30,493 nt of DNA, from the IMG/VR virus record IMGVR_UViG_3300049740_000584, positions 1 through 30,493 of that record; one strand, given 5' to 3'. This document shows, one piece after another, positions 1,695 through 17,900 of this stretch. The stretch comes from a virus. A model generated the notes under the pieces. That model saw only the letters and a program-made list of their open reading frames with translations. It was not told the DNA's origin and did not search any database. Both the position numbers and the translations under genes were made by a program. Each line of letters opens with the position of its first letter. Position 1 is the stretch's first letter.

Positions 1695-1702
1695 TATAAA
1701 TA
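1695..1702 (+). promoter_or_regulatory. Late promoter (TATAAATA) for the hub operon
   Basis: A perfect T4-type late box, 36 bases upstream of the gp48-like start, in the 63-bp divergent gap. T4 late promoters consist essentially of this octamer, read by the gp55 sigma-like factor. It would drive the rightward hub genes. Confidence 0.8.
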
Positions 1703-1738: not shown

Positions 1739-2749
1739 ATGGACAATAATAAACATAAAACACATATGTTCCCTATTGAAAATAGAGATAAGTATAAGGC
1801 ATATATTAAATTTACGCCGATTATTAAAAACGGACCTACTTATCAGAGTAGAGTAAATATACCTCAGACAGAAGCGCAATCTTCTAGCGATACCGCTAAG
1901 AGTTTTTTAGAAAATGCATTTAATCAATTCGGAAACTCGGCAATTTCTGCTTCTACCGAAAGGAGAGGTGATGAGTCTGTCGCTTTATATATGCCCACAC
2001 CAGTTACTATTCAGGATGGAGTTAGTATAGAACCAGCAAGTCTTGGCATTTTAGGAGAGGGTGCTTCAAGGTCAATGGATGCTGGAAGCGGGATTGTTGC
2101 AGCTGTAGGTGCAGCCCTTCAAGATGGTATGGGAAGTTTAATTGAAACACTAAAAGGAAATGTATCCGGCGATGCTGCATCTCTTGGTGCTAGTAGATTG
2201 GCTGCGGGATTACCAGGCCCGGGTACCGATGCGGTTAGAGGATCGTTAAGAGTAACTCCTAATCCGAACACTAGAATGATGTTTAGATCCGTAAATATAC
2301 GAGAGTTTTCCTTTGACTTTAAGATGGTCCCAACAAGTAAAAGAGAGCAAGAAGAGATTAAAAATATTGTTTCATTCTTTAGGATAAATCTTTATCCAGA
2401 AGTTATTAAACTAGAGGGCACTGGTGGTAATAGTATAGATGCTGGTTATAAGTTTCCCAATTTATTTGAAATTAAACTAATGTATGAGGGAAAAGATTTA
2501 TCTAAAGATAATCCTAATTTAAGTTTTAAGCATATGTACCTTAAAGCATTTACTGCATCATATAATTCCACTGGTGGTTTTTATAAAGATGGAGAATTTA
2601 ATGAAGTTTCAATACAAGTATCATTTGCCGAAGAATTTACTTTAAATAAAGATGATGCTAAACTTGGAATGGCTAAGAAAGCAACAGCAGCAGCTAGAAC
2701 AGAAGCGGTATTGGCTGATAGAGCCCGCGGAATTGAAAGAGGGTTTTAA
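1739..2749 (+). CDS. 48: Baseplate tail-tube cap, T4 gp48-like
   Basis: A 336-residue protein, close to T4 gp48 (364). It forms the ring that joins the hub to the tail tube. Residues 80-99 hold the gp48/gp54-type segment SVALYMPTPVTIQDGVS. A Gly/Ala-rich middle follows (roughly 110-180), then NPNTRMMFRSVNIREFSFDFKMVP, which is the tube-fold strand seen in gp48 and gp54, and a helix with SKREQEEIKNIVSFF. The C-terminal 40 residues are Ala- and Arg-rich. It is the first gene of the rightward unit, 36 bases after a perfect late promoter, and two bases before the gp53 gene. gp48 and gp54 are themselves related, so gp54 is the alternative name; the size and the adjacent gp53 favour gp48. Confidence 0.8.
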   Translation: MDNNKHKTHMFPIENRDKYKAYIKFTPIIKNGPTYQSRVNIPQTEAQSSSDTAKSFLENAFNQFGNSAISASTERRGDESVALYMPTPVTIQDGVSIEPASLGILGEGASRSMDAGSGIVAAVGAALQDGMGSLIETLKGNVSGDAASLGASRLAAGLPGPGTDAVRGSLRVTPNPNTRMMFRSVNIREFSFDFKMVPTSKREQEEIKNIVSFFRINLYPEVIKLEGTGGNSIDAGYKFPNLFEIKLMYEGKDLSKDNPNLSFKHMYLKAFTASYNSTGGFYKDGEFNEVSIQVSFAEEFTLNKDDAKLGMAKKATAAARTEAVLADRARGIERGF

Positions 2750-2751
2750 TA

Positions 2752-3474
2752 ATGACATTTTTTGCAGGATTTCCAGAAGTTATATACAAATATGGTAATG
2801 AGAAAGAATTTAATCTTGCTCAAAATCTTTCCGTATATGTTGATATAATTGATAGATTTAAAGATAACTCATCAATGTACACTTTTTATAATCTATATGA
2901 TGGAGAAAGACCAGATCAAGTTTCTCAAATGTTATACGGTACTACAGATTATTATTGGACATTCTTTTTACTTAATGATAATTTAAAGACAAAAGGTTGG
3001 CCACTATCAAGTAAAAGTTTAGATCAATATGTTAAAAATAAATATAACAACACTACTCTTACAACTCGTGATTATTTTTATGATAAATTTAAAGTAGGTG
3101 ATTCTATTACTGGGCAAGAATCTACTGCAGTTGGTAAGGTGATATCAACTAATTCAAATCTAGGAACTATTACAGTTCAATCAACTCCAACTTTTATTTT
3201 AGGTGAAACTATACAATTAGTTGGAGATCCTAATAAAACTGTTACACTACACTCAACTAGTGCAGAATATAATGCAGTAAGATATTATAAATCTGGTAAT
3301 GATATCGTTGATATAGATCCTACAGTAGGCCCTGGTGCGTCTTTAGTTGAAGTGACAAATCTTGAATATTATCAAGAACAAAATAGTGAAAATTTTACTA
3401 TAAAAGTATTTAAACCAGAAACAGTTTCTAGTGTCTTTGCTGCATATAAGAGTGCTCTCCGAGAGAATATCTGA
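2752..3474 (+). CDS. 53: Baseplate wedge protein, T4 gp53-like
   Basis: A 240-residue wedge protein; T4 gp53 (196 residues) clamps neighbouring wedges around the hub. The family pattern is clear: an early VYVDIIDRFK helix, then YDGERPDQVSQMLYGTTDYYWTFF and a GWPLS motif near residue 83. The extra length comes from an inserted beta-rich module at about residues 110-160 (FKVGDSITG, then VGKVISTNSNLGTITV), similar in style to a segment in the gp8-like protein downstream. The C-terminal part (about 165-240) returns to wedge sequence. Its stop overlaps the next start by one base (TGATG), showing translational coupling to the hub gene. Confidence 0.9.
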   Translation: MTFFAGFPEVIYKYGNEKEFNLAQNLSVYVDIIDRFKDNSSMYTFYNLYDGERPDQVSQMLYGTTDYYWTFFLLNDNLKTKGWPLSSKSLDQYVKNKYNNTTLTTRDYFYDKFKVGDSITGQESTAVGKVISTNSNLGTITVQSTPTFILGETIQLVGDPNKTVTLHSTSAEYNAVRYYKSGNDIVDIDPTVGPGASLVEVTNLEYYQEQNSENFTIKVFKPETVSSVFAAYKSALRENI

Positions 3475-4826
3475 TGGTCGAACAATCAAATCACGAGATT
3501 AATGCTGAATTTCTTATTAGAAAAATTATAATTGAAAAACAGTCTTTAAATACAGAATTTAATATAACTTCTGTTATTAATGAAGTTAACATATATGAGC
3601 ATGTTGATAAGCCATATTTAACTGGACAAGTTGTATTTGCTGATACAAATAGAATTTTAGAAACAGCAGAAATCAGTGGAACCGAATTAGTTACTATAGA
3701 AATATCAAGTACGCTAGATGATTCTGAATTTACTATCATGAAAAAATTTATTATAAGTGAAATAGTACAAAGCGTAAAATCAAATGATAATACTGAATTA
3801 GTTGGTATTAGTTTAATAGAGGATATAGGATATTACTCAAGGTTGATGCGTGTTCAAAAACCCTATAGTGGTGTACCAAGCTCTATTATTAATAATATAT
3901 TAAGCGAATACTTAGGAAGATCAGTTGCGCAGATTGGTGGAAGTGAACACATTGATGGTAATATGAAAGTATTAATTCCAAATATGGAACCAATTCAAGC
4001 AGCTAATTGGATAAAAGACCGAGCATCTTCGGCAACTGGTCTCCCATATTTTTTATTCTCTACAATATGTGATGATCAATTAAGATTTTTAGATTTAGAA
4101 AAAATATTAAATTTAACACCACTTAATCAAAGCACATACGACTATACTTTTTCACAATCAATTGGTTCTGGATTTAAGACTCGAGATCCTAGACAGTTCT
4201 ATGCAATAAGAAATTTTAAATATACAAATATTGAAGATCAATTAATGATGGCAAGAAAAGGTTTTACTGGATCAACTTATAATTTTATTGACACAATAAA
4301 AAATAAATCTTATACTTCAAGAATTAATGCTCAAGAAGTATTTGGTGGCATTCCATATTCACCTAGACAAAATCTTCCAATTTATGATGGAATAACAGCA
4401 TTTCCTGGAGGTGCTATGCATAATTATGATACAAGTGAAATTAGTCAGATGGCTCCATCAAAAACTTTTGAGGACGGTTCTTTTAATTATTATGAAGCCT
4501 CTGGAACGTCATCACACATGTTTAAAGCAAAGTCAAAATCTCTTAGACATTTCTTACATAAATCTTCAATAGATATATCAGTACCAGGTAAAAACTTCTT
4601 ACATAGAGGCATAAATAAATCTGTAGGCAATTTAATTAATATATCATTTAATTCTAATATGGCAGATACTTCAAATTCTAGCCCAGATAATAATTTGGAT
4701 AAGAAAAAAAGTGGAGCATATATGATATATGCTACAAGACATGTATTTCAAGAAAACATTTATAATGCTGTAATCTCTTGTGCTAAATTAGGATATAAAC
4801 CTAGATCAGCTGGAGGGTTTACGTGA
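3474..4826 (+). CDS. 27: Baseplate central hub, T4 gp27-like
   Basis: A 450-residue protein in the position and style of T4 gp27 (391 residues), the trimeric hub ring that holds gp5 and continues the tail tube. The N-terminal half (about 20-130) is made of beta strands (NITSVINEVNIYEHVDKPYL, then SGTELVTIEIS). A segment at 160-185 (NMKVLIPNMEPIQAANWIKDRASS) is typical of gp27 and gpD-type hub proteins, followed by LPYFLFSTICDDQLRFLDL. The start overlaps the gp53 stop. The end overlaps the GTG start of the OB-fold/lysozyme gene by four bases, fitting tight hub-needle stoichiometry. The hub call is strong; exact equivalence to gp27 rests on order and pattern. Confidence 0.82.
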   Translation: MVEQSNHEINAEFLIRKIIIEKQSLNTEFNITSVINEVNIYEHVDKPYLTGQVVFADTNRILETAEISGTELVTIEISSTLDDSEFTIMKKFIISEIVQSVKSNDNTELVGISLIEDIGYYSRLMRVQKPYSGVPSSIINNILSEYLGRSVAQIGGSEHIDGNMKVLIPNMEPIQAANWIKDRASSATGLPYFLFSTICDDQLRFLDLEKILNLTPLNQSTYDYTFSQSIGSGFKTRDPRQFYAIRNFKYTNIEDQLMMARKGFTGSTYNFIDTIKNKSYTSRINAQEVFGGIPYSPRQNLPIYDGITAFPGGAMHNYDTSEISQMAPSKTFEDGSFNYYEASGTSSHMFKAKSKSLRHFLHKSSIDISVPGKNFLHRGINKSVGNLINISFNSNMADTSNSSPDNNLDKKKSGAYMIYATRHVFQENIYNAVISCAKLGYKPRSAGGFT

Positions 4827-5695
4827 GAAATAATAATTTAAAAACTTTACAGGGTGATTATTATGGTGACTATTTTAGATGGTTTATAGGTATAGTTGTC
4901 AATAATAAAGATCCCCTTAAACTTGGTAGAGTAAAAGTACGAATAAGAGGTATTCATTCTCCTAGTGTTGCACAAACTTCGACAAATGATTTACCTTGGG
5001 CTCAAGTTATAGTTCCATCAACTGAAGGAGGTATATCAGGAATAGGGAAAATGCCTCAGCTTCAACAGGGTTCTCAAGTAATTGGTTTTTTTATAGATGG
5101 TTCTAGTTCTCAGCTACCAATGGTTATGGGATCTGTACACCACTTTGAAAGAAAGAAAAATGCCACGGGTAATAATAAAGAAGAAACTCCTTTAGACGGA
5201 GAAGAACCTAGTGATGTTCAAGATGGTGAGGGCAACGATGGCCGTAAGATTGATTCTCAAGATTTACCAGGTGGCTCAAATGGTGAGAAAATATTTAACT
5301 ATTTAAAGAAACAAGGATTGACTGACGAACAAGCTGCTGGTGTTATAGGCAATTTAACAGCGGAATCAAATTTAGATCCTAATGCACTTAATCCGAACGA
5401 TGTTGGTAAACCAGCTTTCGGGCTTGCACAATGGAGAGGTTCGAGATATGAGGATCTTATAGAATTTTCTAATAGTAATGGTTTAGATCATACAACTCTT
5501 GAAGCACAGCTACCTTTCATGATGCACGAATTAGAATCACAGTCTTGGTTAGGTTACGGTGCATTACAAAATGCAACAACAGTTTCTGATGCAACAAGAG
5601 TATTTGAAACAAAGTTTGAAAGACCTAGACCTGGAACATTTGGCAAAAGATATAACTTTGCTCAAATAGCATACGATTTATACAGTAGTTCTTGA
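4823..5695 (+). CDS. 5: gp5-type OB-fold plus tail lysozyme protein, without the needle
   Basis: A 290-residue protein with two domains. Residues 14-108 form the gp5/VgrG-type OB-fold: FIGIVVNNKDPLKLGRVKVRI, LPWAQVIVPS, QGSQVIGFFIDG and PMVMGSVHH. An acidic, Gly-rich linker (110-150) leads to a lysozyme-like domain at 153-288. That domain carries GVIGNLTAESNLDPNA (likely catalytic Glu181), GLAQWRGSR (200-208) and FETKFERPRPG, the pattern of phage-tail lysozymes that cut glycan strands. T4 gp5 also has a C-terminal triple beta-helix, but this protein stops after the lysozyme; the helix is in the gene at 7617. The start is GTG in a GTGA overlap with the hub stop, with GGAGGG just upstream (4812-4817). 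Confidence 0.88.
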   Translation: MRNNNLKTLQGDYYGDYFRWFIGIVVNNKDPLKLGRVKVRIRGIHSPSVAQTSTNDLPWAQVIVPSTEGGISGIGKMPQLQQGSQVIGFFIDGSSSQLPMVMGSVHHFERKKNATGNNKEETPLDGEEPSDVQDGEGNDGRKIDSQDLPGGSNGEKIFNYLKKQGLTDEQAAGVIGNLTAESNLDPNALNPNDVGKPAFGLAQWRGSRYEDLIEFSNSNGLDHTTLEAQLPFMMHELESQSWLGYGALQNATTVSDATRVFETKFERPRPGTFGKRYNFAQIAYDLYSSS

Positions 5696-5708
5696 TGGAG
5701 TTTATTTT

Positions 5709-7613
5709 ATGTCTTTATTAAAAAATTCAATTAGCCCAGACGGTTTTAGTTCCATTTTAGGTGGAGTAAAAGAACAGACAAACATTTCTGAAGTTTCTGA
5801 AACTATTTCCAACTTAGGTGTTTCTAATCAATCTACATTAAGTAGTGTAGTAGCCAAAAATGCAAATACTACAGTTGCTAATATTGAATCCTTAACTTCT
5901 TTAAGTGATACATCTGACCTTAATTCAATACCAGATATTGGTCCAGTGAGATTAAAAAATCCTATTGAGGGATTTTTCTCGGCATTTACTAGCACACCAA
6001 CAAATAGTAGAGCCCTGCAAGCTATAACTGGTAAAGCTCCAGTATTAGGAAATTTAAAATCTCACGTAATTGCATCATCGCCATTTTCTATTTTTAGTAC
6101 AATAGGTAATATTAGTGGTATTGATCCAAATGATTCATTAATAGGTCAACTTACAACCGCAGCTGCAGATACGGTTATTTCAAATATTAAAGATACAACA
6201 AGAGAAAGTTCATTTGCAAATTCTCTTGCTTCCGCAACTATATCCAGACTTAGCTCTACTAATAATTTCGAAGGCGGTATATTAACCAATTTACTCTTAT
6301 TGGGAACCGATGTTTTAAGAAATGAGCTTGTGTCGAGTACTGATGGTTTATTAAAAGACTCCGTTTTAAATCAAGCTATGCAAGAAATAGTTTTAGGTAG
6401 AAAAGAAAATGCTGTTAATATTATACAAAGAGGATTAGAAAGTTTACCTAATCAGCCTTCTAATATAGATAATATTCTTAAGAGTGTTTATAGCATAAAT
6501 CCTTCAATATCTAATGTTGTAGCTAGTAGAGGTTCTGAATTTACTCAATTAAAACCAGCAACTACTAAAGTAGAAAGATTAAATTCAAACGAACAGAATT
6601 TTCCAATTTCTTCTACAGTAGATAAAGGTGTTCCAAGTTCTTATGATTTTAAGTTTGTTGATAGCTTAGAGGAACTTATTGCTGATTTTAGAGGAACCAA
6701 TAGAGAAATTACCGAAACTGTTGTACACTGGACCGCACATTATATGGACCAAGGGCATGTTGGTTCGGAAGAATTGCATAACATAGCAATAAATAGAGGA
6801 TTTTCAGGATGCTCATACCATTATATTATTAAAAGAGATGGGTCACTTCAAAGAGGAAGACCGTTGAACCGGATCGGGGCACACGCAAAAGCTAATGGTC
6901 ATAATAAGTATAGTATAGGTGTTTCAATGGTAGGTGGATATAATTGTAATAGTGGTAATCCACGCTATAATAAATTTATTAGTGCCGAGTCTATCACATC
7001 AGAACAATGGAATACTTTAGATCAGTTTCTTAAAGCTTTTTATGTTGTATGGCCTGGTGGACAAGTTTGGGGTCATAACGATACTGATCCAGAGTCAAAG
7101 GTTGATCCTGGAATTGATATGCAAGAATATGTGCAAAATAAATTTAAGAAGAAAAATAAATCCGCATCAGGAACTCTTCCGCCCTTGTCTCCTTCCGAAC
7201 TTGTGGGAGCAAGTAATACTAAAGCTGTTCCCGAACAATCCGCTGTGAATACTGTAACTTCTGAACCTACACAAAATTCGGAAATAAATAATAGCACATC
7301 TTATAATATTAATACTAGAGATTTTGTTTCTATAAAATCGGCAGCTGAAAGAAATGGTCTTTCCGAATTAGTAAAACTTCCAGAATGGCCATTATCAGAA
7401 ATTTTAAATGCAGCAAAAAGCGGAAAGTATCCAGTAGGTACAACATTTAATATTTTTGATGCAGATGGGATAAACTCATTTCATGTAGATAAGTGGCAAG
7501 TATGGGAAAGTTCTTATGGAACTAAAACTTTAGTAGAAATTACCGATCAAGATGCTGTTGCTAGATTAAACAGAATGGCAACAAATGGCAGATACACATG
7601 GATAACAGGATAA
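5709..7613 (+). CDS. Baseplate-associated N-acetylmuramoyl-L-alanine amidase (Amidase_2/PGRP type)
   Basis: A 634-residue protein. The first 310 residues are Ser/Asn/Thr-rich with amphipathic helices and no domain I recognise; they may anchor the protein to the hub. Residues 334-475 form a zinc amidase of the T7 lysozyme/PGRP family: VVHWTAH (zinc ligand His340), SYHYIIKRDG (Tyr372 region), GAHAKANGHN, VWGHND (His456) and SKVDPG (Lys464, Asp466). These match the usual His, His, Cys/Asp ligands and catalytic Lys. A Thr/Ser/Pro-rich linker (485-535) leads to a last domain (537-634) that I do not recognise. The gene sits between the lysozyme and needle genes, so the enzyme probably travels in the tail tip and cuts the stem peptide from the glycan. 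No signal peptide is present, which argues against a free endolysin. Confidence 0.85.
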   Translation: MSLLKNSISPDGFSSILGGVKEQTNISEVSETISNLGVSNQSTLSSVVAKNANTTVANIESLTSLSDTSDLNSIPDIGPVRLKNPIEGFFSAFTSTPTNSRALQAITGKAPVLGNLKSHVIASSPFSIFSTIGNISGIDPNDSLIGQLTTAAADTVISNIKDTTRESSFANSLASATISRLSSTNNFEGGILTNLLLLGTDVLRNELVSSTDGLLKDSVLNQAMQEIVLGRKENAVNIIQRGLESLPNQPSNIDNILKSVYSINPSISNVVASRGSEFTQLKPATTKVERLNSNEQNFPISSTVDKGVPSSYDFKFVDSLEELIADFRGTNREITETVVHWTAHYMDQGHVGSEELHNIAINRGFSGCSYHYIIKRDGSLQRGRPLNRIGAHAKANGHNKYSIGVSMVGGYNCNSGNPRYNKFISAESITSEQWNTLDQFLKAFYVVWPGGQVWGHNDTDPESKVDPGIDMQEYVQNKFKKKNKSASGTLPPLSPSELVGASNTKAVPEQSAVNTVTSEPTQNSEINNSTSYNINTRDFVSIKSAAERNGLSELVKLPEWPLSEILNAAKSGKYPVGTTFNIFDADGINSFHVDKWQVWESSYGTKTLVEITDQDAVARLNRMATNGRYTWITG

Positions 7614-7616
7614 ATC

Positions 7617-9656
7617 ATGGTTACCGAAAATGATAATATAGAAGAAAGAATTGCAACCGACGGGAAAGCTCAGGTTAATAATGAAGGTGTGCCTACAGAC
7701 GGATTTGTTGACCCAGACGGAAAATATCCTAAAGATGAATATGTTGGCGAACCATCAGTTAATAAGGGATCACGTGGAACAAAAGTTCATAATTTAAAAA
7801 TTAAAAATGGTTCCATAGGCTGTGAGACAACTTTAGTAAAACAACCAAAAGCGATATATCCCTTAAATCAAGTGAACGAGTCAACATCTGGTCATATAAT
7901 TGAAATTAATGATACTCCTGGCGGAGAAAGAATACTTATTAAACATAAAGATGGTGCAGGTGTTGAAATAAAACCCGATGGTACTATTATTGTCAATAGT
8001 TTAGGTAATAGAGTTGATTTAGTATCTGAAAATCATACTATGGCTGTAGAAGGTAATGGTTGTATTACATATTACGGCAATTTAAATCTTACTGTTCAGG
8101 GTGATTATAATTTAGATGTGAAGGGTGATTATAATGTAAAAGTTGGCGGGAATAATATATTAAATGTTATAGGCAATTATCGTAAAAATATTGTCGGACT
8201 GTTTAATGAAGTAATACAGAAAACAAAAACATCTACTGTACTACAAAAAGTTGCTAATACATATTTAAGTGGATTTGGTACTTACACAAAAGGCACATTT
8301 AATAATGAAGTAGATGGTACTGCAGAATATTCACATAGTGGTAATACATATATAACTTCTGAATCTGAAATCAGTATGTCTTCACCAAATGTAAATATTG
8401 CCGCTTCAGATATTTCAGTATTCGGAGATGATGGAACTATTGGTGGCGACAATGTAACAATGTTTTCACAAAATAGTTATGTAGGTAGAACTTTGCATGC
8501 AAGTGAAGTCGAAGCAAAGAAAACTATGAAAGCAAAAGTATTTCACGGCAGTTTAAATGGTACAGCAAAAGGTGCACTGAAAGCTGGTACTGCTGCCCTA
8601 GGAGCGTCACACAGTGGATCTGTAGATACTACTGCACATAGTAAAGAAGATCCTGTAGCACAAGGTAAAAAATTTAAACCAACTTCAACCATTGTCAATG
8701 CATTTCTATTCAATGAAGATAGAGGTGTAAGAGAAATTAGAATTGACAGAGATGGTGGAATATTAGATGGCATTAATCAAACTAAAAATTCTGGTGGTAT
8801 AACAGATAAAAAATTAGATACTGGAGAAGTAAGATCAAAGTTGAAAGAAACTTCTAATCTAAAAAATAATAAATTTTTGGAAAGCCAGGTTGCAAATGAA
8901 TCACTTAATTCTGAATTTGCTTCTGTGGCACCAGAAAAAATTGGCAGAATAAAAGGTATAAATCAAACAGCAAGAACTGGCTATACACCAATAGGTTCAA
9001 GAAGGGAAGAAGCCCTAAGTAAAAAATATACACTTAGAGAGTCTTCATCTCGTGGAGTAGAAAGAACTATACCCGTTGATTCTAAGTATGATCCTAATAA
9101 ACAAAGTGATATTACTATGGGAACTAATCTTGGAAGTGGTATTCCTATTTCTAAGTTTATAGCTGGAGCTAAAGACCCCATAAATTTAAATCATACAACT
9201 AGCGCAGAACAAAGAAAAAATATAGCAAGGAATTTATATCCTCAGTCTGAGATAATTAATTTATTTTATCAGCTTGATCAATTTCAAGGGTATAATTTAG
9301 TAGTTGTTGAAGGCTTATATAAACCCGGACCTGAAGAAACTTTGACTCCCGGAGGTATTAAAGAATCCGCTAAAGATGGCAAGTTTGTTGTATATGAAGT
9401 CTATGACTCATTTACTGGTCAAATTTCTAATAGTAAATCTTTTGATTTTGCTGTATATTTAAAAGATAATACTAATTATGAAAATTTAATTATGTACTAC
9501 GATAATTATAACACTGATGGATCTTTACACTCTCAGGTAGGTGTTGGTATGCCGACCATACCAGAAAATTATACTGCATTTTTTAATAAAAATATTAAAA
9601 CAGTTTATAACGGTACATTACAGACAACAACAGACTTAATCGAAGTATTACCTTAA
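7617..9656 (+). CDS. Membrane-puncturing needle protein (gp5 C-terminal beta-helix type) with long C-terminal extension
   Basis: A 679-residue protein. Residues 1-90 are polar. Residues 92-130 (GHIIEINDTPGGERILIKH, then DGAGVEIKPDGTI) match the strand pattern that opens gp5 and VgrG beta-helices. Residues 130-195 carry eight-residue repeats such as LTVQGDYN, LDVKGDYN and VKVGGNNI, the octads of a triple-stranded helix. The helix seems to fade near residue 270. Residues 295-330 (VFHGSLNGTAKGALKAG) look like fibre sequence. About 350 more residues follow, including IPISKFIAGAKDPINLNH and GYNLVVVEGLYKPG, whose role I do not know. In T4 the helix ends the protein, so this extension is unusual. 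It completes the gp5 set begun at 4823. Confidence 0.8.
   Translation: MVTENDNIEERIATDGKAQVNNEGVPTDGFVDPDGKYPKDEYVGEPSVNKGSRGTKVHNLKIKNGSIGCETTLVKQPKAIYPLNQVNESTSGHIIEINDTPGGERILIKHKDGAGVEIKPDGTIIVNSLGNRVDLVSENHTMAVEGNGCITYYGNLNLTVQGDYNLDVKGDYNVKVGGNNILNVIGNYRKNIVGLFNEVIQKTKTSTVLQKVANTYLSGFGTYTKGTFNNEVDGTAEYSHSGNTYITSESEISMSSPNVNIAASDISVFGDDGTIGGDNVTMFSQNSYVGRTLHASEVEAKKTMKAKVFHGSLNGTAKGALKAGTAALGASHSGSVDTTAHSKEDPVAQGKKFKPTSTIVNAFLFNEDRGVREIRIDRDGGILDGINQTKNSGGITDKKLDTGEVRSKLKETSNLKNNKFLESQVANESLNSEFASVAPEKIGRIKGINQTARTGYTPIGSRREEALSKKYTLRESSSRGVERTIPVDSKYDPNKQSDITMGTNLGSGIPISKFIAGAKDPINLNHTTSAEQRKNIARNLYPQSEIINLFYQLDQFQGYNLVVVEGLYKPGPEETLTPGGIKESAKDGKFVVYEVYDSFTGQISNSKSFDFAVYLKDNTNYENLIMYYDNYNTDGSLHSQVGVGMPTIPENYTAFFNKNIKTVYNGTLQTTTDLIEVLP
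8098..8135 (+). repeat. 24-bp-period direct repeat coding beta-helix octads
   Basis: The 14-base unit AGGGTGATTATAAT occurs at 8098-8111 and again at 8122-8135, exactly 24 bases apart. This equals one eight-residue beta-helix repeat (GDYN.). Identity at the DNA level suggests recent duplication of an octad in the needle gene. Confidence 0.8.
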
Positions 9657-9662
9657 AAACAT

Positions 9663-9670
9663 TATAAATA
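9663..9670 (+). promoter_or_regulatory. Late promoter (TATAAATA) for the wedge operon
   Basis: A perfect late box in the 37-bp gap between the needle gene and the gp25 gene, 23 bases upstream of the ATG. An AAGAG ribosome-binding site follows at 9683-9687. It would start the wedge transcription unit. Confidence 0.82.
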
Positions 9671-9693: not shown

Positions 9694-10140
9694 ATGCCAT
9701 CAAGATCATTATCAATTGAAGATAGAAAATTAGATGCTGGAGTAAAAATAGTTGCTTCAAGCAGTAGGATATATTCGGATATTGATTTAGCATTTAAAAA
9801 GAAAAAGAATGGTGATATATTTAAAAAGACTGACGCTAATGCGGTAAAACAAGCTGTTAAGAATTTAATTCTTACAAATCACTATGAAAAACCTTTTGTA
9901 CCTTTCTTTGGTGGAAGTATTAGAGATATGCTGTTTGAACTTGGTGATCAGTTTTTAGATTTTGAAGTAGAACAAAGAATAAAATTAGCAATAGAAAATT
10001 ATGAACCAAGAGCTGAAGTAATAGACGTATCCACTTCATATAGAGACTATGCAAATTCTCTTGACGTATCAATAACTTTTGTTATATTAAGTACAAATGA
10101 AACAATTACACTAGAAACAGAAATTTCGAGGTTGAGATAA
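9694..10140 (+). CDS. 25: Baseplate wedge / sheath initiator, T4 gp25-like
   Basis: A 148-residue protein, close to T4 gp25 (132). It is one of the most conserved baseplate parts in contractile machines (P2 W, T6SS TssE) and starts sheath polymerisation. The family hallmark EPRAEV is present at about residues 109-114, preceded by a PFFGGSIRDMLFE helix (PF....G...R..LFE) near residue 70. A variable N-terminus holds YSDIDLAFKKKKNGD. The stop shares one base with the gp6 start (TAATG), fitting the obligate gp25-gp6 complex. It is the first gene after a late promoter. Confidence 0.93.
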   Translation: MPSRSLSIEDRKLDAGVKIVASSSRIYSDIDLAFKKKKNGDIFKKTDANAVKQAVKNLILTNHYEKPFVPFFGGSIRDMLFELGDQFLDFEVEQRIKLAIENYEPRAEVIDVSTSYRDYANSLDVSITFVILSTNETITLETEISRLR

Positions 10141-11981
10141 TGGCCACAAATATTACATCAACAGCTTTAGATTTTGATGCTATAAGAAATAGTTTAAAAA
10201 CTTATTTTGCACAGCAACCAGAATTTTCTGACTATAACTTTGAAGCATCTGGCTTATCTAATGTATTAGATGTTTTAGCTTACAATACACACTTTAATGG
10301 GCTTACCGCAAACTTTGCAACTAATGAAGCATTTTTAAATACTGCGCAATTAAGATCATCAGTTGTATCACATGCCGAGGCTCTTGGTTATAGACCAAGA
10401 TCAAGAACCCCATCATCTTCTTCACTCACGCTATATGTTAATCTTTCCGGCGTTGCAAATCGGCCATCTTCAATAACTCTAACTTCTGAGTGGGTATTTA
10501 ATGCATCTAATGAGTCTGAAACTTTTCAATTTATAACAGATAAAAATTATAGCGCACAAGATGATGGAAATGGATTATATAGATTTTATGATGCAAATGG
10601 GAATTCGGATATTAAAGTTTTTCAAGGCGAGTTTAAAACAAAAACTTTTATTGTTGATGATACAGCAGAAAATCAAATATACGTTATACCAGATGAATCT
10701 CTTGATACCGGAAAAATAACAGTAAATGTTTATGATACACCAACATCTACAAAATTTACTTCATATTATTTCTTAGATACTGCACTTACTGTGGACTCAA
10801 CTACTGCATTCTTTGATATAAAAGAATCGCCAAACGGATACTATGAGATTAATTTTGGTGATGGTAAGAGTTTCGGTAAATCTCCTGCAGTTGGCAGTAA
10901 AGTTGTAGTCAGATATTTTTCTTCAAGAGGAACTGATGCAAATGGATGTACTGGTTTTAAAAGCGCAAATAGTTTTGTTTTAAATGATGTAAACTATCCT
11001 GTTAATATTCAAATACAAAAATCTTCTACAGAAGGTTATGAAAAAGAAACAATAGAATCAATTCGTAAATTAGCACCACTTCAATTTGCAGCTCAGAAAA
11101 GATTAGTAACATCTGCAGATTACAGAGCAATGATTTTATCTAACTTCCCTGTTATAAAAGATGTTGCAGTATGGGGCGGAGAAGATAATGTCCCTATTGA
11201 TTATGGTAAGGTGTATATTAGTCTTCAATATCAAGATGGAACATCAGATGCAGTAAAAACTGCAACACAAAATAGCATTGAAACTAACTTTACTAATCAA
11301 CTTTCTGTTATGTCAATTTCAAATAAATATGTAACTCCTGAAGAAACATATTTAGAAATAACGGGTAATTTTAATTATGATCCTAGTTTAACTAATGATA
11401 CAGGTTCTGCTATCCAAACAACTATTACAAATTTTCTACAAGAATATTTTACAAATACTTTAAATAGTTTTAATTCATCTTTTAGTAGATCAGAAGTATT
11501 AACCGAAGTAAGTGATTTAAATAGAGCCATACTTTCGGCAAAGATGGATCTTAAGGTTCAGCAAAGAGTAGATATAACTGTTGGTTCTCCTAAAAATTAT
11601 AATATATATTTTCCAGTAATGTTAATTCCTGCTGAAGCGCAAGACTATAGTATTGAATCTTCAATGTTTACTTATGGTGATGATGCAGTTCGTTGTACGG
11701 TTAAAAATAAATTAAACTCAAATATATTACAGGTTGTATCAACTACGGGATCTATAATTGTAGAAGATATTGGAAGTTATAATTATCAAAAAGGTAGTGT
11801 AAATCTTAACGGTTTTACTCCAGTCTCAATATCGACTGGAACTACATATATTACATTTAGTTCAACTCCTCTTGATCAGAGTATGATTTCTCCTCTTAGA
11901 AATTATGTACTAAGATTGGATACTGCAAAATTAAGAATGCAGCCACTAAAGAATGAACAAGATACAAAGGTAGCGTTGTAA
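10140..11981 (+). CDS. 6: Baseplate wedge protein, T4 gp6-like (P2 gpJ family)
   Basis: A 613-residue protein, near T4 gp6 (660), which dimerises to form the inner ring of the baseplate. Residues 10-85 read LDFDAIRNSLKTYFAQQPEF, YNFEASGLSNVLDVLAYNTH and SHAEALGYRPRSRTPS, the typical gp6 start. The middle holds beta-rich sequence with YEINFGDGKSFGKSP, and residues around 300-345 read ESIRKLAPLQFAAQKRLVTS followed by ADYRAM. That stretch is the conserved gpJ-type segment. The C-terminal region includes SEVLTEVSDLNRAI. It lies directly after gp25 and before a gp7/gpI-like gene, the same W-J-I order as in P2. Confidence 0.92.
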   Translation: MATNITSTALDFDAIRNSLKTYFAQQPEFSDYNFEASGLSNVLDVLAYNTHFNGLTANFATNEAFLNTAQLRSSVVSHAEALGYRPRSRTPSSSSLTLYVNLSGVANRPSSITLTSEWVFNASNESETFQFITDKNYSAQDDGNGLYRFYDANGNSDIKVFQGEFKTKTFIVDDTAENQIYVIPDESLDTGKITVNVYDTPTSTKFTSYYFLDTALTVDSTTAFFDIKESPNGYYEINFGDGKSFGKSPAVGSKVVVRYFSSRGTDANGCTGFKSANSFVLNDVNYPVNIQIQKSSTEGYEKETIESIRKLAPLQFAAQKRLVTSADYRAMILSNFPVIKDVAVWGGEDNVPIDYGKVYISLQYQDGTSDAVKTATQNSIETNFTNQLSVMSISNKYVTPEETYLEITGNFNYDPSLTNDTGSAIQTTITNFLQEYFTNTLNSFNSSFSRSEVLTEVSDLNRAILSAKMDLKVQQRVDITVGSPKNYNIYFPVMLIPAEAQDYSIESSMFTYGDDAVRCTVKNKLNSNILQVVSTTGSIIVEDIGSYNYQKGSVNLNGFTPVSISTGTTYITFSSTPLDQSMISPLRNYVLRLDTAKLRMQPLKNEQDTKVAL

Positions 11982-11985
11982 TACA

Positions 11986-13533
11986 ATGTCTGAAGATAGA
12001 AATAATTTATCACTTAGAGCAGACTATGTAAGGGATATTCTCCCGGAGTATTTTACTGCAGATTATCCTAATCTTATTCAGTTTTTAGAAACTTACTATG
12101 ATGCTTTAGATAGTGATGGAAATTTCGGTAATACTATAAAAGACTTATATGAAATAAGAGATATAGGAAAAACAGATTTAAAATATCTTGATAATTTATT
12201 TGGCGAAATAGGTCTCAGTTTATCTTCGGAGTTTGTTTCTAACCCAAGAGAAATATTAAAAAATTTAGCCAAGTTTTTTAGAGTAAAAGGTTCTCTTTAT
12301 TCTGCCGAAGGTTTCTTTAGAGGATTTTTTGATGCATCAGCAGAAGTTGAATATCCAAAAGATAAAATTTTTACATTAGATGATCCATTATCAATACTCG
12401 GATCTAAATCATCTAAGAAAATGCAAGATGGTAGATTACATCAGGTATTATCTCATCTTATAAAGACCACAGTACCATTAAAAGACTGGGAACAATTATA
12501 TAAAAAGTTTGTACATCCAGCAGGATTTTATTTACATGCTGAAGCACAGCTTTATACTAATCCAACATATAAGCCTGTTGGTGTTCTTTCAGATGCAACT
12601 CCTTTAAATTTAAGAGTTGAAACTGATAGTGCTTTACCGAAGTTGGCTATAGATACTCGTATTATTAGTAAAACTGATATGGGAAATAGTGACATCCTTA
12701 TTATGGATGGCCATAAAGAATATGTTTGTGGATCAAATACTAGAAGATTTCAATATGCAAATATACTAGACTATGCTGATAGTGAAGGGTGGTTTATTGA
12801 AGATAGTTATGGTAGAGCATTAGAAGGTCCGGGTCTTTCTGTTAAAAATTCTGTAGATGCTGGATTGTATAGTAATAAAGAAATACATGTTGCTGCTATT
12901 GATTTATCACCAACATTAAAAAGTGAAGATATTAAATATCAGCCAAGCCTTACGGAAGTACCAGGGGAGCCATATACTATATTTGAAGCTTCTCCGGCAA
13001 CAATTAAAACATTAAATACACAAACACCAACTACATCATCAACTTTAATTCAAATAAATGTTCCTTCAGAATTAAATAAAACTCTTGAACAAATTACAAG
13101 AGGCGATAGTAAAACATATATTTCAAGAATGTATTTAACAGGCAATTATTCTTCCACAAAGCTTGATATAGCTTTGCCTGGTTTAGGAGATTCTTTTGGT
13201 GGGGATTATTTCTGCATCGGTGGCGATTCGGATGCTGCTAATCATTCTACTGCAGTTGTATCAGCCTCAGCTCCAGTATTAAGAGTTGATGATATTCTTG
13301 ATTCATATGGTATGTTAGATATAAACATTAAAAAGACTGGATCCGGTTCTATTAGTGTAAAATTTAATCTTTCACATAAATTTAACAGTATATATGAGTG
13401 GATTAAGTATGATTCTAATGCAGTTTTTGATATAAATAGTTTTAATTATGGTGACAACCAAAGTATGAGAAATGTGACTATTCAAGAATTAAGAAACAAG
13501 AATATGTTATATTTAAAAGACGCAATAATTTAA
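11986..13533 (+). CDS. Baseplate wedge protein, gp7/P2 gpI-like
   Basis: A 515-residue protein. The N-terminal 190 residues match the conserved core of P2 gpI and T4 gp7: YVRDILPEYFTADYPNLIQF, LETYYDALD, LYEIRDIGKTDLKYLDNLFG and FFRVKGSLYSAEGFFRGFF, then a later KFVHPAGFYLHAEA. This core forms the heterotrimer with two gp6 copies. T4 gp7 is about twice as long (1032 residues), so the arms of T4 gp7 are absent. The C-terminal 300 residues are beta-rich and not recognised. Position after gp25 and gp6 strongly supports the wedge role. Near its 3' end the coding sequence contains a perfect TATAAATA at 13431. Confidence 0.8.
   Translation: MSEDRNNLSLRADYVRDILPEYFTADYPNLIQFLETYYDALDSDGNFGNTIKDLYEIRDIGKTDLKYLDNLFGEIGLSLSSEFVSNPREILKNLAKFFRVKGSLYSAEGFFRGFFDASAEVEYPKDKIFTLDDPLSILGSKSSKKMQDGRLHQVLSHLIKTTVPLKDWEQLYKKFVHPAGFYLHAEAQLYTNPTYKPVGVLSDATPLNLRVETDSALPKLAIDTRIISKTDMGNSDILIMDGHKEYVCGSNTRRFQYANILDYADSEGWFIEDSYGRALEGPGLSVKNSVDAGLYSNKEIHVAAIDLSPTLKSEDIKYQPSLTEVPGEPYTIFEASPATIKTLNTQTPTTSSTLIQINVPSELNKTLEQITRGDSKTYISRMYLTGNYSSTKLDIALPGLGDSFGGDYFCIGGDSDAANHSTAVVSASAPVLRVDDILDSYGMLDINIKKTGSGSISVKFNLSHKFNSIYEWIKYDSNAVFDINSFNYGDNQSMRNVTIQELRNKNMLYLKDAII
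13431..13438 (+). promoter_or_regulatory. Possible internal late promoter within the gp7-like gene
   Basis: A perfect TATAAATA inside coding sequence (Asp-Ile-Asn-Ser codons), 105 bases upstream of the gp8-like start. It could add transcripts for gp8 and the downstream fibre genes, but it may be chance in AT-rich coding DNA. Confidence 0.35.
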
Positions 13534-13543
13534 TAGGTAGAGC

Positions 13544-14905
13544 ATGTCGACAATTGTAACACAAAACTTTAAGAAGGAACTCATGATTGGGACCATTCGT
13601 AGTATTAATAATACTACAGAGAACTATTATATTGGCGTGTCTCGATCTAATCCATGGAATGCTGTAGATTCAGCACCAACAGCTAAAGATAATATTAGGA
13701 TTCAAAACGAATTCCGAAACGGTCTTCAATCTATTCATAGAGTTGCAGCTGCTGCATTAGTTGTTCCTCGTAAATCTTGGACTACTGGATCCACATATGT
13801 TGCATATGACGACAAAAAAGATTTATCTGACTACGGTTCAGACTTTTTCTATGTTGCAAATAATAATCATGATGTTTATATTTGTTTAAGACAGGGAACA
13901 GATGCAACTGGCTCAGCGGTAGCTTCGACGGTTCAACCTACAGGTTCTAATAATGATCCATTTGAAACATCTGATGGATATGTTTGGAAATTTCTTTATA
14001 CTATTAGTGCATTAGATGCTACTTTATTCATGACTAACGATCATATGCCTATTGATCGTATTTTAGCCACAGATTCAAATTCTACTGGTAATGAAATAAA
14101 ACAGTATGAAGTTCAGAGTGCTGCAAAGCCCGGGATGATCACAGCATTTGAAGTAACTGCGGCTGGAACTAATTATAGTAACCCATCAATTAATATCAAT
14201 GGTGTCAATTATCCTGATCTTGTAGATTTTACGTTAAATTCTGGCGCTATTGTAAAAGCGGAATATAATCCTGATTCCTCAGGTACCACTTTAAACTATG
14301 TTCACGGATTAAGAGGAGCACAAATAACTCTTACTGATTCTAATGGAACAAATGGTGAAGTGAGAGCTGTTATGTCCAGTGGATTAGGTATTGGTGGAGA
14401 TGCATCTTCTGATCTTAAGTGTGGTTCTATGATGATTGGTGTAAGAGTTGATGGAAATACATCTGACTGGTTACTTAATCAAGATTATAGACAAATTGGT
14501 ATTATTAGAGGAATTAAAGATTCTGCTCAAGGTACTCAGTGGACTAATCTTACTGGGGGTGCTTTACAATCTATGACTCTTGCGACACAAACAGTTGCAT
14601 TTACAACAGATGAAGTTATTGTTGGTGCTACAAGTGGTGCAAAAGCATACGTTGATCAAACTAATGGTAATACAATTCTATTCCATCAAAATGATTCAAC
14701 TGGTTATGTTGGATTTGTAGCAAGCGAAACTTTAACAGAAATGAGTGGACCAGGACAGGGTACTGTAGGCAATCCACTTATAGCATCAGAAGTTGATCCA
14801 TTTACAGGCGAAATACTGTATATAGATAATAGGTCTGCAGTAACTAGAGTTGCTAATCAGACAGAAGATATTAAAATAGTTATTCAATTGGATGAGTGTT
14901 CATGA
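13544..14905 (+). CDS. 8: Baseplate wedge protein, T4 gp8-like
   Basis: A 453-residue protein; T4 gp8 has 334 residues and forms a dimer on the outside of the wedge. The N-terminal half matches the family: ENYYIGVSRSNPWNAVDSAP, IHRVAAAALVVPRKSW, YVAYDDKKDLSDYGSDFFYV, VYICLRQG and DGYVWKFLYTISALDATLF. The C-terminal part is longer than in T4 and includes a small repeat-like beta module (FTTDEVIVGATSGAKAYVDQ, about residues 352-371) similar in style to the gp53 insert. AGGTAG before the ATG serves as ribosome-binding site. The stop overlaps the next gene as ATGA. Confidence 0.87.
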   Translation: MSTIVTQNFKKELMIGTIRSINNTTENYYIGVSRSNPWNAVDSAPTAKDNIRIQNEFRNGLQSIHRVAAAALVVPRKSWTTGSTYVAYDDKKDLSDYGSDFFYVANNNHDVYICLRQGTDATGSAVASTVQPTGSNNDPFETSDGYVWKFLYTISALDATLFMTNDHMPIDRILATDSNSTGNEIKQYEVQSAAKPGMITAFEVTAAGTNYSNPSININGVNYPDLVDFTLNSGAIVKAEYNPDSSGTTLNYVHGLRGAQITLTDSNGTNGEVRAVMSSGLGIGGDASSDLKCGSMMIGVRVDGNTSDWLLNQDYRQIGIIRGIKDSAQGTQWTNLTGGALQSMTLATQTVAFTTDEVIVGATSGAKAYVDQTNGNTILFHQNDSTGYVGFVASETLTEMSGPGQGTVGNPLIASEVDPFTGEILYIDNRSAVTRVANQTEDIKIVIQLDECS

Positions 14906-17900
14906 CCGTAAACTATACTAAAAATTTAGAAACCCAAGTTTATAAAGACGACTTTGATCCCGATAAAGGGTTCCATAAAGTATTATTTAAAAGCGGTAAA
15001 GCACTTCAAAGTAGAGAATTGAATCAGCTTCAATCTATTATACAAGAAGAAATTAAAAGACTTGGCACTAATCTTTTTAAAGAGGGTGCTTCACTCGAGT
15101 CTGCTGCTCTTACTTTTAATAATCGTTACAGATATATTAAACTTAATACTGACCCAACTGATGCTACAACTCCTGGTGTTTCTTTACCTACAAATGTTTC
15201 TAATTTTAAAGATAAAGTTTTTATTGGACAACTTTCTGGAATTTCTGTAAAAGTTATTGAAATAGTAGAAGCTGAGGGATCTGATCCGGCAACAATTTAT
15301 GTTCAGTACATTGATACTTTAAATGGAACATCTGGAACAGAACCTGCTTCTGTAACTCCAGGCGAAGAATTACTAGAAAAAGACGGTTCTGTGGTATTGG
15401 TTGTTCAAACAACTAACACTACTGCAGATCCAGCAACTGGTTATGGTTTTAGAATTTCTGCTGGACCAGCATCATTCTTTGCTGAAGGACACTTTGTTCA
15501 TGCGCCAAAACAAAGTCTTATTGTTGCAAAGTATTTTTCAAATCCAACTGCTACTATCGGGTTTAAACTTACACAGGTAGTTACTACAGCAGATGATGAT
15601 GATTCTCTATATGACAATCAAGGAGATTTACCAAATTATACGGCTCCTGGTGCAGATAGATATACAATTAATTTAGAACTTGTAAATAAGAATACTATTC
15701 AAGCTGATGAGACATTTATCTATTACGCTAAAATTGAACACGGGTTCCTTGTTGAAGCAGTTACTGGATACGAGCAATATAATAAAATTAATGATATTAT
15801 GGCCGTACGAACGAAAGAAGAGTCTGGTAATTATACTGTAAAACCATTTAGACTTTCTTGGGATGAACATTCATCAGATAACACAAAACTATCTTTAGGC
15901 GTAAGTAGCGGTACAGCGTATGTAAATGGTTATAGAGTAAGTAAAGCATCTGCTAGTACTTTAGATATACCAAGATCAACTACTACTATAACACAAGAAA
16001 ATAAAGGCATCTCTGGAACATATGGTAATTATATACTAGTTGAAGCTGGTTTCTTCGGCGTTCCTGATGTAAATATTTTTGAACGAGTAGATATCAGTGA
16101 CGATACTACAGGAACTGCCCCTTTTGATGTTAACGATAAAATTGGTTCTTTAAGAATTAGAGGTGTAGATCCTGGAGAGCCAGGATCAAATACATTTAAG
16201 GTATATGTGTTTGATATTGAAATGAACGCCGGTAAAATATTTAATAGAGATGCTAGGGCAATCGGTTTAGATAGTGGAGCTTGTAGTTGTGAAAGACAAG
16301 AAATGAGACTTGTCAGATCAAATAATAAAGTTATAATATATGAAACTCAAGCAAATGAGCTGTTCTTTAAAATACCAGGCAATAGACCAAGCGCAGTTTC
16401 AGATGTTTCTATGACTCTTGCAAAAAGATATAGAGGTACTGCTGCATCAAATGGTTCGATGACAATAACTGCTTCAGCGGGAGAAGTATTTACAGATACT
16501 GCTAATTGGATTATTTCAGACCCAGGCGGAGCAACAGCAGGACAATCTCCTACATATGCTGGAGTTGGTACATCAAGTGTTACTATTACGGGTTTAGTTA
16601 GTTCTAAAAATAGTGGAGTTATTGCTACAGGTTTTGATCAATTTGAAGTATATGCTTATACATTTAAGGGTGCATGTAATGTAGCTTCTAAAACAAAAGT
16701 CACGACTACAGCACTTGTTACTTTTAATCCAAGTACAGGTGTCGCACAGCTACCCTACACTGATGTAATAGGCGTAGAAGAAATTAGAATATTGGCTTCT
16801 AACGGAAATCTTGTTACAGATAAGTTTGAAGTAGATGGTGGTCAAAGAGATAATTCATACCAGAAAGGTTCTATTACCATTAAACCTGGTAGAACAGTTA
16901 CTGGTAATTTCCAGAATACAACTCTTCAGCTATTTGTTAAATTCTCTTATTTTGCTCATGGTTCTGGTGACTTTTTTGGACCTAGTTCTTACTCAACAAT
17001 TGATTATCAAGATATTCCTAATTATCAATTAGCAAACGGCCGCTATGTGGATTTAAAAAATTATCTTGATTTTAGATCATCAAAAGGAAGTAGTGGTACA
17101 TATTCAACCACTGATGCCGAAATATTTATTTTACCGAGACAAGGCTCAACTATTGTAGCTGACGTTTCATATTATCAACCAAGATATGATAAGTTAGTTT
17201 TAACACAACAGGGCGAATTTAAATATATTAAAGGAACACCATCTTTAAATCCTAAGTTTCCTTCAATTCCTGATGGTGCTATGGAACTTCATAGAATTAG
17301 ATTAAATGCTGGAACATTTGGTCCTGATGATTTAACATTCTCAATGCTTGATAACAAACGCTATACAATGAGAGATATTGGAAAGCTAGAGAAAAAGATT
17401 GATGATCTTGCAGAAGTAACATCTCTTACACTATTAGAAATGGATACTGCAAATATTGATGTATTAGACGAAGATAATAGGAATAGAACAAAATCAGGAT
17501 TTATGGCGGACAATTTTGAGAATCAATATTTCTCAGATATTACACATCCAGGGTATTCAGCAGCTATTGATCCAAGAAATAAACTTATAAGACCAAGAGC
17601 AATTACAAATAACATTGGTCTTTATTATGACTCAAATGCATCCACAAATACTATTATGAAAGGTGATAATGTATATACAACTTATAATACAACACCTTAC
17701 ATTGTTCAAGATATTGCATCATCGTCCATAAATGTCAATCCATATTTGAATTTATTTTACAATGGTGCTATGTCACTTTCCCCAGCATCTGATGACTGGT
17801 ATGAAACTGATTATATCCCAGATAAAATTATTCCAGGTGGATCATTACTTAATACAGACTTGGCTCTTCAATGGGGTGATCATGAATGGAATTGGGGTGG

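Follow-up and report, generated by a model that had tools for sequence, protein, structure and literature searches.

A T4-type gp5 encoded by two genes, with an amidase gene between them, in mostly uncultured T4-like phages

The spike of phage T4 is the textbook example of a puncturing device, and it serves as the model for the spikes of type VI secretion. We analysed a 30,493-base IMG/VR virus record with a T4-like baseplate cluster (IMGVR_UViG_3300049740_000584, here called the window), in which the spike protein gp5 appears in two pieces: one gene encodes an OB domain and a tail lysozyme, another encodes the needle, and a gene for an amidase lies between them. We give a probability of roughly two in three to the reading that these genes encode a T4-type puncturing device whose gp5 comes in two pieces and to which an amidase, probably carried in the virion, has been added. 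Judged from the sequences compared below, this rearrangement of a very well known machine is real and recurrent in mostly uncultured T4-like phages. An earlier sequence-only reading of the window had described gp5 as split over three genes; the split stands, but it is over two genes, and the amidase is an addition, not a gp5 fragment. The open reading frames (ORFs) encode exactly 290, 634 and 679 amino acids (aa) on one strand with gaps of 13 and 3 nt, and their domains lie where that reading had put them, with OB-fold and lysozyme in the first, the amidase in the second and the beta-helix in the third. The features of these genes are as follows.

4823..5695, plus strand: gp5 part 1, OB domain and tail lysozyme, 290 aa (Pfam, phmmer against PDB)
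4862..5158, plus strand: OB domain, aa 14-112 (profile and PDB matches)
5264..5692, plus strand: PF18013 tail lysozyme, aa 148-290, with Glu181 within an AESNL motif
5709..7613, plus strand: amidase-bearing protein, 634 aa (Pfam, phmmer, Foldseek)
5709..6668, plus strand: its N-terminal region, aa 1-320, predicted helical mostly at low confidence, no Pfam family
6681..7148, plus strand: Amidase_2 domain, aa 325-480, with H340, Y370, H456, K464 and D466 present
7236..7610, plus strand: 125-aa C-terminal extension of the amidase, present or absent among near-identical phages
7617..9656, plus strand: gp5 part 2, needle, 679 aa (Pfam, phmmer against PDB, AlphaFold)
7686..7778, plus strand: gp5 linker GFVDPDGKYP...NKGSRG, aa 24-54, which follows the OB domain in several unsplit gp5 proteins
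7893..8549, plus strand: beta-helix region, aa 93-311 (PDB match, AlphaFold model, octad motifs)
9048..9653, plus strand: C-terminal alpha/beta domain of the needle, aa 478-679, tentatively of M15/Hedgehog-type fold

The OB-lysozyme ORF starts with GTG and overlaps the preceding gp27-like ORF by 4 nt. In Pfam its product matches Gp5_OB (E 9.7e-7), Phage_base_V (3.5e-5) and Phage_lysozyme2 (1.4e-32), and its OB stretch matches residues 7-102 of the T4 gp5 chain 1k28_A (1.1e-13, phmmer against PDB). The lysozyme had been thought to be of T4 type, but it belongs to PF18013, the phi29 gp13 type, and not to GH24, the family of the T4 lysozyme. It scores 113.2 bits against a cut-off of 28.2 and matches the structure 3csr, "Morphogenesis protein 1", at 3.3e-9; we take 3csr to be phi29 gp13 and Glu181 of the AESNL motif to be catalytic. 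Two different peptidoglycan-cleaving domains are thus encoded beside a genetically split gp5, as the sequence-only reading had it on both counts (Pfam, phmmer).

The needle protein matches residues 381-454 and 478-542 of 1k28_A (2.7e-10, phmmer against PDB), so that both the pre-helix and the helix regions of T4 gp5 are represented. Its Pfam matches are below threshold, both for Gp5_trimer_C (1.1e-5, 26.0 bits, cut-off 30.9) and for Gp5_C (0.014). V/I-x-G motifs at 144, 160, 168, 176, 184 and 192 follow the 8-residue register of the T4 helix, with additional motifs outside that register, and the protein would be expected to form a trimer. It had been described simply as a beta-helix; the helix is there, and a further domain begins at about residue 478. 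A needle gene with its own OB-fold had been named beforehand as one finding that would refute the split. Within the reach of the tools it has none: Pfam and the domain profiles of this analysis gave no OB match, and residues 1-92 of the AlphaFold model contain no strand as long as three residues, though the predicted local distance difference test score (pLDDT) is below 50 there.

The position of the gene break can be followed through the linker at the start of the needle (consensus GFxDPxxxYP...N.xARG). This linker comes after the OB domain in the unsplit gp5 of T4 (111-124), of Aeromonas phage UP87 (at 111) and of HTVC008M (102-128, as GMRDP; OB, linker and helix in one chain), and after the lysozyme, again in a single chain, in Ochrobactrum phage OC. 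It opens the needle gene in the window, in phage Melnitz and in loci L055, L061 and L064. Our reading, for part of the family, is that a hydrolase was inserted between OB domain and linker and that the gene break then lies between hydrolase and linker. T4 gp5 itself is cut between Ser351 and Ala352, in its lysozyme-to-helix linker, and its mature spike is not one chain, as had been supposed, but a complex of nine, (gp27-gp5*-gp5C)3, in which the pieces remain together (PMC3004832). The earlier expectation that the window's tail tip would need new contacts was therefore overstated: the gene boundary separates the same two parts, so the contacts required are mostly ones that T4 already has.

The middle protein contains an Amidase_2 domain (E 1.8e-13, 51.4 bits against a cut-off of 26, matched span 332-468) that matches T7 lysozyme (4.4e-11, phmmer against PDB), and Foldseek recovers the amidase fold (6srt at 4.3e-7, 1lba at 2.7e-6). 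In an alignment of 15 rows H340 never varies, at least 90% of the rows keep Y370, H456 and D466, and K464 is variable; we assume active-site roles for these five residues from T7 lysozyme and AmpD. In a 177,535-base relative the OB domain, helix, PF18013 and amidase each have one strong match, all inside this cluster. Ratios of nonsynonymous to synonymous divergence (dN/dS) of 0.07-0.28 against three relatives show purifying selection on the OB-lysozyme, amidase and needle genes.

The gene order recurs in related phages, as had been proposed. We searched IMG/VR with the OB-lysozyme protein, the amidase protein and alignments of all three proteins, then built domain profiles and scanned ORFs of at least 60 aa (at least 50 aa for the 15 lineage-B contigs described below). 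After removal of 20 repeat loci, 103 loci had a domain match. Of these, 64 showed both OB and helix; the other 39, among them some cut contigs and the 18 loci with OB proteins of about 670 aa described below, were left out of the count because they had OB alone (31), helix alone (7) or neither of the two (1). In 22 of the 64, window included, OB and helix are encoded by two ORFs that enclose a third with Amidase_2; several of these 22 hardly differ from one another, and in L025 and L010 the contig ends within OB or needle. A further 11 are split around a weak amidase-like ORF, and 7 are split with no amidase-like match (Melnitz, L043, Rhizobium phage RHph_I1_18, L115, L116, L117 and L122). The remaining 24 are fused: 21 without PF18013 or Amidase_2, two with PF18013 and one with Amidase_2. 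HTVC008M and C48C1, looked at apart, are also fused.

In a tree of the OB and helix columns, nine split-with-amidase representatives form one side of a branch (support 84/87), as do seven such rows in a second tree (81/68), and the short fused proteins and fused isolates fall outside that branch. Melnitz groups with UP87 (91/83, and 95/87 in the second tree). A single origin of all gp5 splits gave p 0.03 with 31 rows and 0.116 with 30 rows in the approximately unbiased test. No isolate with all three genes was found: nowhere in a collection of 50,697 phage records, which may leave out records very near the window's genome, did a match cover 80% of the needle or amidase protein, the best listed isolate rows covering 35% and 38%, respectively. 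Megablast of 12 kb of the window gave no match.

A second lineage, lineage B, comprises RHph_I1_18 and 15 IMG/VR contigs (L111-L125). Its order is OB-PF18013, a protein of 116-126 aa, then needle, in 15 of the 15 contigs found with the L085 middle protein (OB is cut in L125); RHph_I1_18, L115, L116, L117 and L122, listed above as having no amidase-like match, all have the small protein at this place. A third-round amidase profile, which had taken in other phage amidases and none of the lineage-B small proteins, matches the small protein in 11 of the 15 contigs at E 0.003 or below in a small search, and among 2,439 ORFs it ranks L085 and L062 right after the true amidases (E 0.002 and 0.0026; next 1.4). 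With the domain profile, and without RHph_I1_18, hhalign gives the small protein a probability of 65 and a score of 33.2, whereas 100 column shuffles did not exceed 18.5 and eight other cluster domains did not exceed 23.1; with the full-length alignment the probability is 4.6, and 6.3 for L085 alone. Pfam Amidase_2 matches are faint (best 0.024; 6 of 15 members at E 1), and a PDB profile search of the small protein found no amidase. The alignment covers the core around "YxFIIDVDGxVYQG", and the small proteins have neither the HW-motif H nor the GHND motif of the amidase. This moderate evidence makes it probable that the small protein is an inactive remnant of an amidase fold. The amidase lineage and lineage B lie together on one side of a weakly supported branch (70/27).

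From these comparisons we propose the following model. Part 1 would form a trimer of OB domain and lysozyme beneath the gp27-like hub; part 2 would begin with gp5's own linker, make the trimeric needle and end in an extra C-terminal domain. The two pieces would meet non-covalently with no new principles, and little new is needed because the gene break falls at the inter-domain position that T4 cleaves. The middle protein would attach to hub or needle via its 320-aa N-terminal region. On contraction the needle would pierce the outer membrane and then leave, after which the lysozyme would cut glycan strands and the amidase would remove stem peptides. Assembly of the three proteins into a complex, their place in the virion, the order of these events and the activity of the enzymes are inferred, and on the sequence comparisons the amidase protein probably rides in the virion. 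The late-promoter matches described below enclose the six-gene hub unit, in line with the model. Vibrio phage VP-1, in which OB, helix, Amidase_2 and S74 are in one chain and a second amidase has its own gene, is by analogy a precedent for an amidase as a spike part. A virion location is also favoured by the amidase gene's fixed place in the hub operon, by the lineage-B protein, conserved although it seems inactive, and by tails of other phages that bear several hydrolases, such as A-1(L).

Several observations weigh against this proposal. Gene order alone does not put the amidase in the spike. The AlphaFold models of needle and amidase protein are monomers from shallow alignments with mean pLDDT 60 and 52; in the needle, residues 1-147 score below 50 almost throughout. 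The GFxDP linker was not seen in Caulobacter phage Cr30, lineage B, VP-1 or the short fused proteins examined, so the linker history covers part of the family only. A first-round amidase profile does not single out L085 and L062 among the 2,439 ORFs (E 1.1 and 2.4). The late-promoter motif discussed below is not over-represented by count (6 in the window, 7.2 expected). To these is added the hydrolase content of the 177-kb relative, taken up with the endolysin alternative.

A stronger version of the proposal would make the middle protein a constitutive third subunit, its amidase fold bridging OB collar and needle and its activity secondary, with an active amidase in one lineage and a shrunken, inactive structural domain in the other. 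We regard this version as doubtful; if true, the spike would be a three-protein machine common to two deep phage lineages. Also doubtful is the reading that the amidase protein, though in the virion, acts inside the tube or hub like a tape-measure or pilot protein and does not belong to the needle. The N-terminal region predicted helical, at low confidence, would fit such a protein, and hydrolases are known near the hub: cyanophage P-RSM1 has an M23 plus Hydrolase_2 protein adjoining its gp27-like gene, and the hub of phage A-1(L) is described as carrying lysozyme, endoglucanase and peptidase domains (PMC10966104). The amidase gene, however, sits between the two gp5 pieces, and the VP-1 fusion again points to the spike.

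It is unlikely that the middle amidase is a lysis endolysin placed in the tail operon, with split gp5 alone forming the spike. The matches of the amidase to the PHROG database are labelled lysis, and no second Amidase_2 match was found in the 177-kb relative, where GH24, M15_3, M15_4, phrog_894, GH108 and M23 had no match at E 0.1 and eight hydrolase pieces from relatives matched 0 of 221 ORFs at E 1. Because no other tested lysis-family enzyme turned up there, the amidase may serve, perhaps in addition, as endolysin. This survey, however, covered only a few endolysin families in one possibly incomplete record. The 320-aa N-terminal region also sets the protein apart from the single-domain type; single-domain endolysins are described as essentially exclusive to phages of Gram-negative hosts (PMC6116005), an argument that would apply if the window's host is Gram-negative. 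Against a pure lysis role, moreover, the place between the gp5 pieces is kept in 22 loci, the lineage-B protein at the same place seems to have lost its active site, and VP-1 has an amidase in gp5 besides its separate one. Finally, a sequencing or assembly error breaking a fused gene has a next to negligible chance: breaks in L078 and L043 could be frame errors, but for this clade an error is contradicted by the same order in 22 contigs, with proper starts and stops where complete, and by purifying selection on all three genes.

The needle's C-terminal domain is modelled mostly at pLDDT 67-93 (residues 478-679). Its VIA-align matches to Hedgehog N-domains reach Z 5.5-5.6, where the tool advises caution under 8; five of these alignments have a root-mean-square deviation of 2.9-3.7 over 103-113 residues. 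Foldseek lists LysB4 at probability 0.60 and E 0.44, and the best viral structure match of the needle model is named Peptidase M15A, with a template modelling score of 0.25 for the whole model. Kinship to M15 was not borne out by sequence: hhalign gave a probability of 0.1 against four M15-like domains, a PDB profile search gave no relevant match and Pfam gave no M15. No His is invariant among 7 members, and conserved metal ligands were not seen among them. Tentatively, the domain may be an inactive M15-type tip. In L064, L066, L067 and L078 it has a gene of its own after the helix gene, and the spike is thereby divided further. A fivefold split in L078 was not accepted, since there the OB/lysozyme break interrupts the lysozyme domain, perhaps through a frame error; it is not counted as a fifth gene. 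PAAR was not found in the 177-kb relative or in RHph_I1_18, a hint that the C-terminal domain stands in place of a PAAR tip. It stays no more than a hint: Melnitz has a sub-threshold PAAR match plus an M15-like needle end, and PAAR was missing from the two cyanophages tested as well.

The amidase's 125-aa C-terminal extension is missing from L012 and L030, which are 97-100% identical to the window on both sides of it. The 375-base module is carried by the window and L029, and its end by L034; one scan for close relatives found no further copy. Window and L029 have zero synonymous differences in its 125 codons and a synonymous divergence (dS) of 0.21 in the remaining gene, for which reason the extension seems to move as a module.

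The hydrolase slot differs among relatives, by domain matches, being PF18013, a GH24 insert, M15/VanY-like or none recognised, while the amidase gene keeps its fixed place between the gp5 pieces. L066 and L067, for example, have no PF18013. In L061 (1028-2320) the PF18013 domain of the OB protein is interrupted by a T4-type GH24 lysozyme, so that one chain holds two lysozymes, and L061 carries the amidase as well; L097 (7992-9284) is near-identical. Outside the count of 64 stand 18 loci (L089-L106 without L097, plus L108) whose OB protein is about 670 aa (one cut at 488) and has no confident helix match. One of them, L096, shows no hydrolase in a Pfam scan. L101 and L102 have a separate 191-aa ORF with a weak helix match (E 2e-3), which may be the helix.

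The surrounding cluster runs from tail-tube cap, gp53 and gp27-like hub through OB-lysozyme, amidase and needle to gp25 and gp6, with two of the motif matches discussed below:

1695..1702, plus strand: TATAAATA, T4-type late-promoter match, 44 nt upstream of the ORF that opens the hub operon
1739..2749, plus strand: baseplate tail-tube cap protein (phrog_230, 5e-33)
2752..3474, plus strand: gp53-like baseplate wedge (Pfam Phage_gp53, 5.7e-5; phrog_232, 1.4e-24)
3474..4826, plus strand: gp27-like hub protein, 450 aa (phrog_350 "tail protein", 4e-43)
9663..9670, plus strand: TATAAATA, late-promoter match directly behind the needle gene and 31 nt upstream of gp25
9694..10140, plus strand: gp25-like wedge/sheath initiator (Pfam)
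10140..11981, plus strand: gp6-like wedge (phrog_219, 8.7e-132)

The relative of the gp27-like protein in phage OC carries a 1WTH_D annotation. Downstream of the wedge genes, at 14896-20427, lies an 1843-aa protein matching phrog_358, of unknown function. We take TATAAATA to be the T4 late-promoter core. Four of its five plus-strand copies (1695, 9663, 23730 and 28022) lie 31-44 nt upstream of an ORF start, and the zone 20-60 nt before the 20 listed ORF starts makes up 2.7% of the window. The copy at 13431 (plus strand) is outside this spacing, and a further copy lies at 1178 on the minus strand. The copies at 1695 and 9663 flank the six genes from tail-tube cap to needle, with none between. 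This spacing suggests a T4-type late regulon and suggests that the motif marks transcription-unit borders.

Split gp5 is already visible in the deposited phages Melnitz and RHph_I1_18, and we found no paper on the split or on the middle amidase in the literature searched, which left most subscription papers outside; the parts seen of PMC3322345, PMC3037559, PMC9004378 and PMC7824862 do not describe a genetically split gp5. RHph_I1_18 and lineage B have the window's order, with a middle protein of only 116-126 aa that lacks catalytic residues; RHph_I1_18 also has a sub-threshold M15 match at its needle end. Melnitz, like the window, has OB and needle in adjacent separate genes with the linker on the needle, but a sub-threshold VanY-like match beside the OB domain and no middle gene. 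Cr30 has the window's parts, OB-PF18013-helix, in one polypeptide, and Ochrobactrum phage vB_OspM_OC has OB-M15-PF18013-linker-helix in one polypeptide; PAAR is present in both. VP-1 carries Amidase_2 in the spike protein itself, C-terminal to the helix on the same chain and without a split. T7 lysozyme shares the Amidase_2 fold and active-site residues, here embedded in a protein of 500-641 aa in a tail operon.

With T4 gp5 itself the window shares the OB domain, a peptidoglycan hydrolase, the gp5-type linker, the octad beta-helix, an adjoining gp27-like gene and, in the mature form, a chain break between hydrolase and helix. In T4, however, the break is made by proteolysis and the hydrolase is a GH24 after the GFxDP linker, whereas in the window the break is a gene boundary, gp5 takes two genes and the hydrolase is PF18013 before the linker. 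Only the window has the long needle C-terminal domain and the in-between amidase gene, and a search for T4's PAAR protein, gp5.4, gave no match in the 177-kb relative. In T4, lysozyme activity in the trimer with gp5C is 10% of that seen with the monomer (PMC3004832). T4's proteolytic cut appears here as a gene boundary, and the split spike offers a natural experiment on which covalent links the device needs and on the reason for T4's cleavage of gp5.

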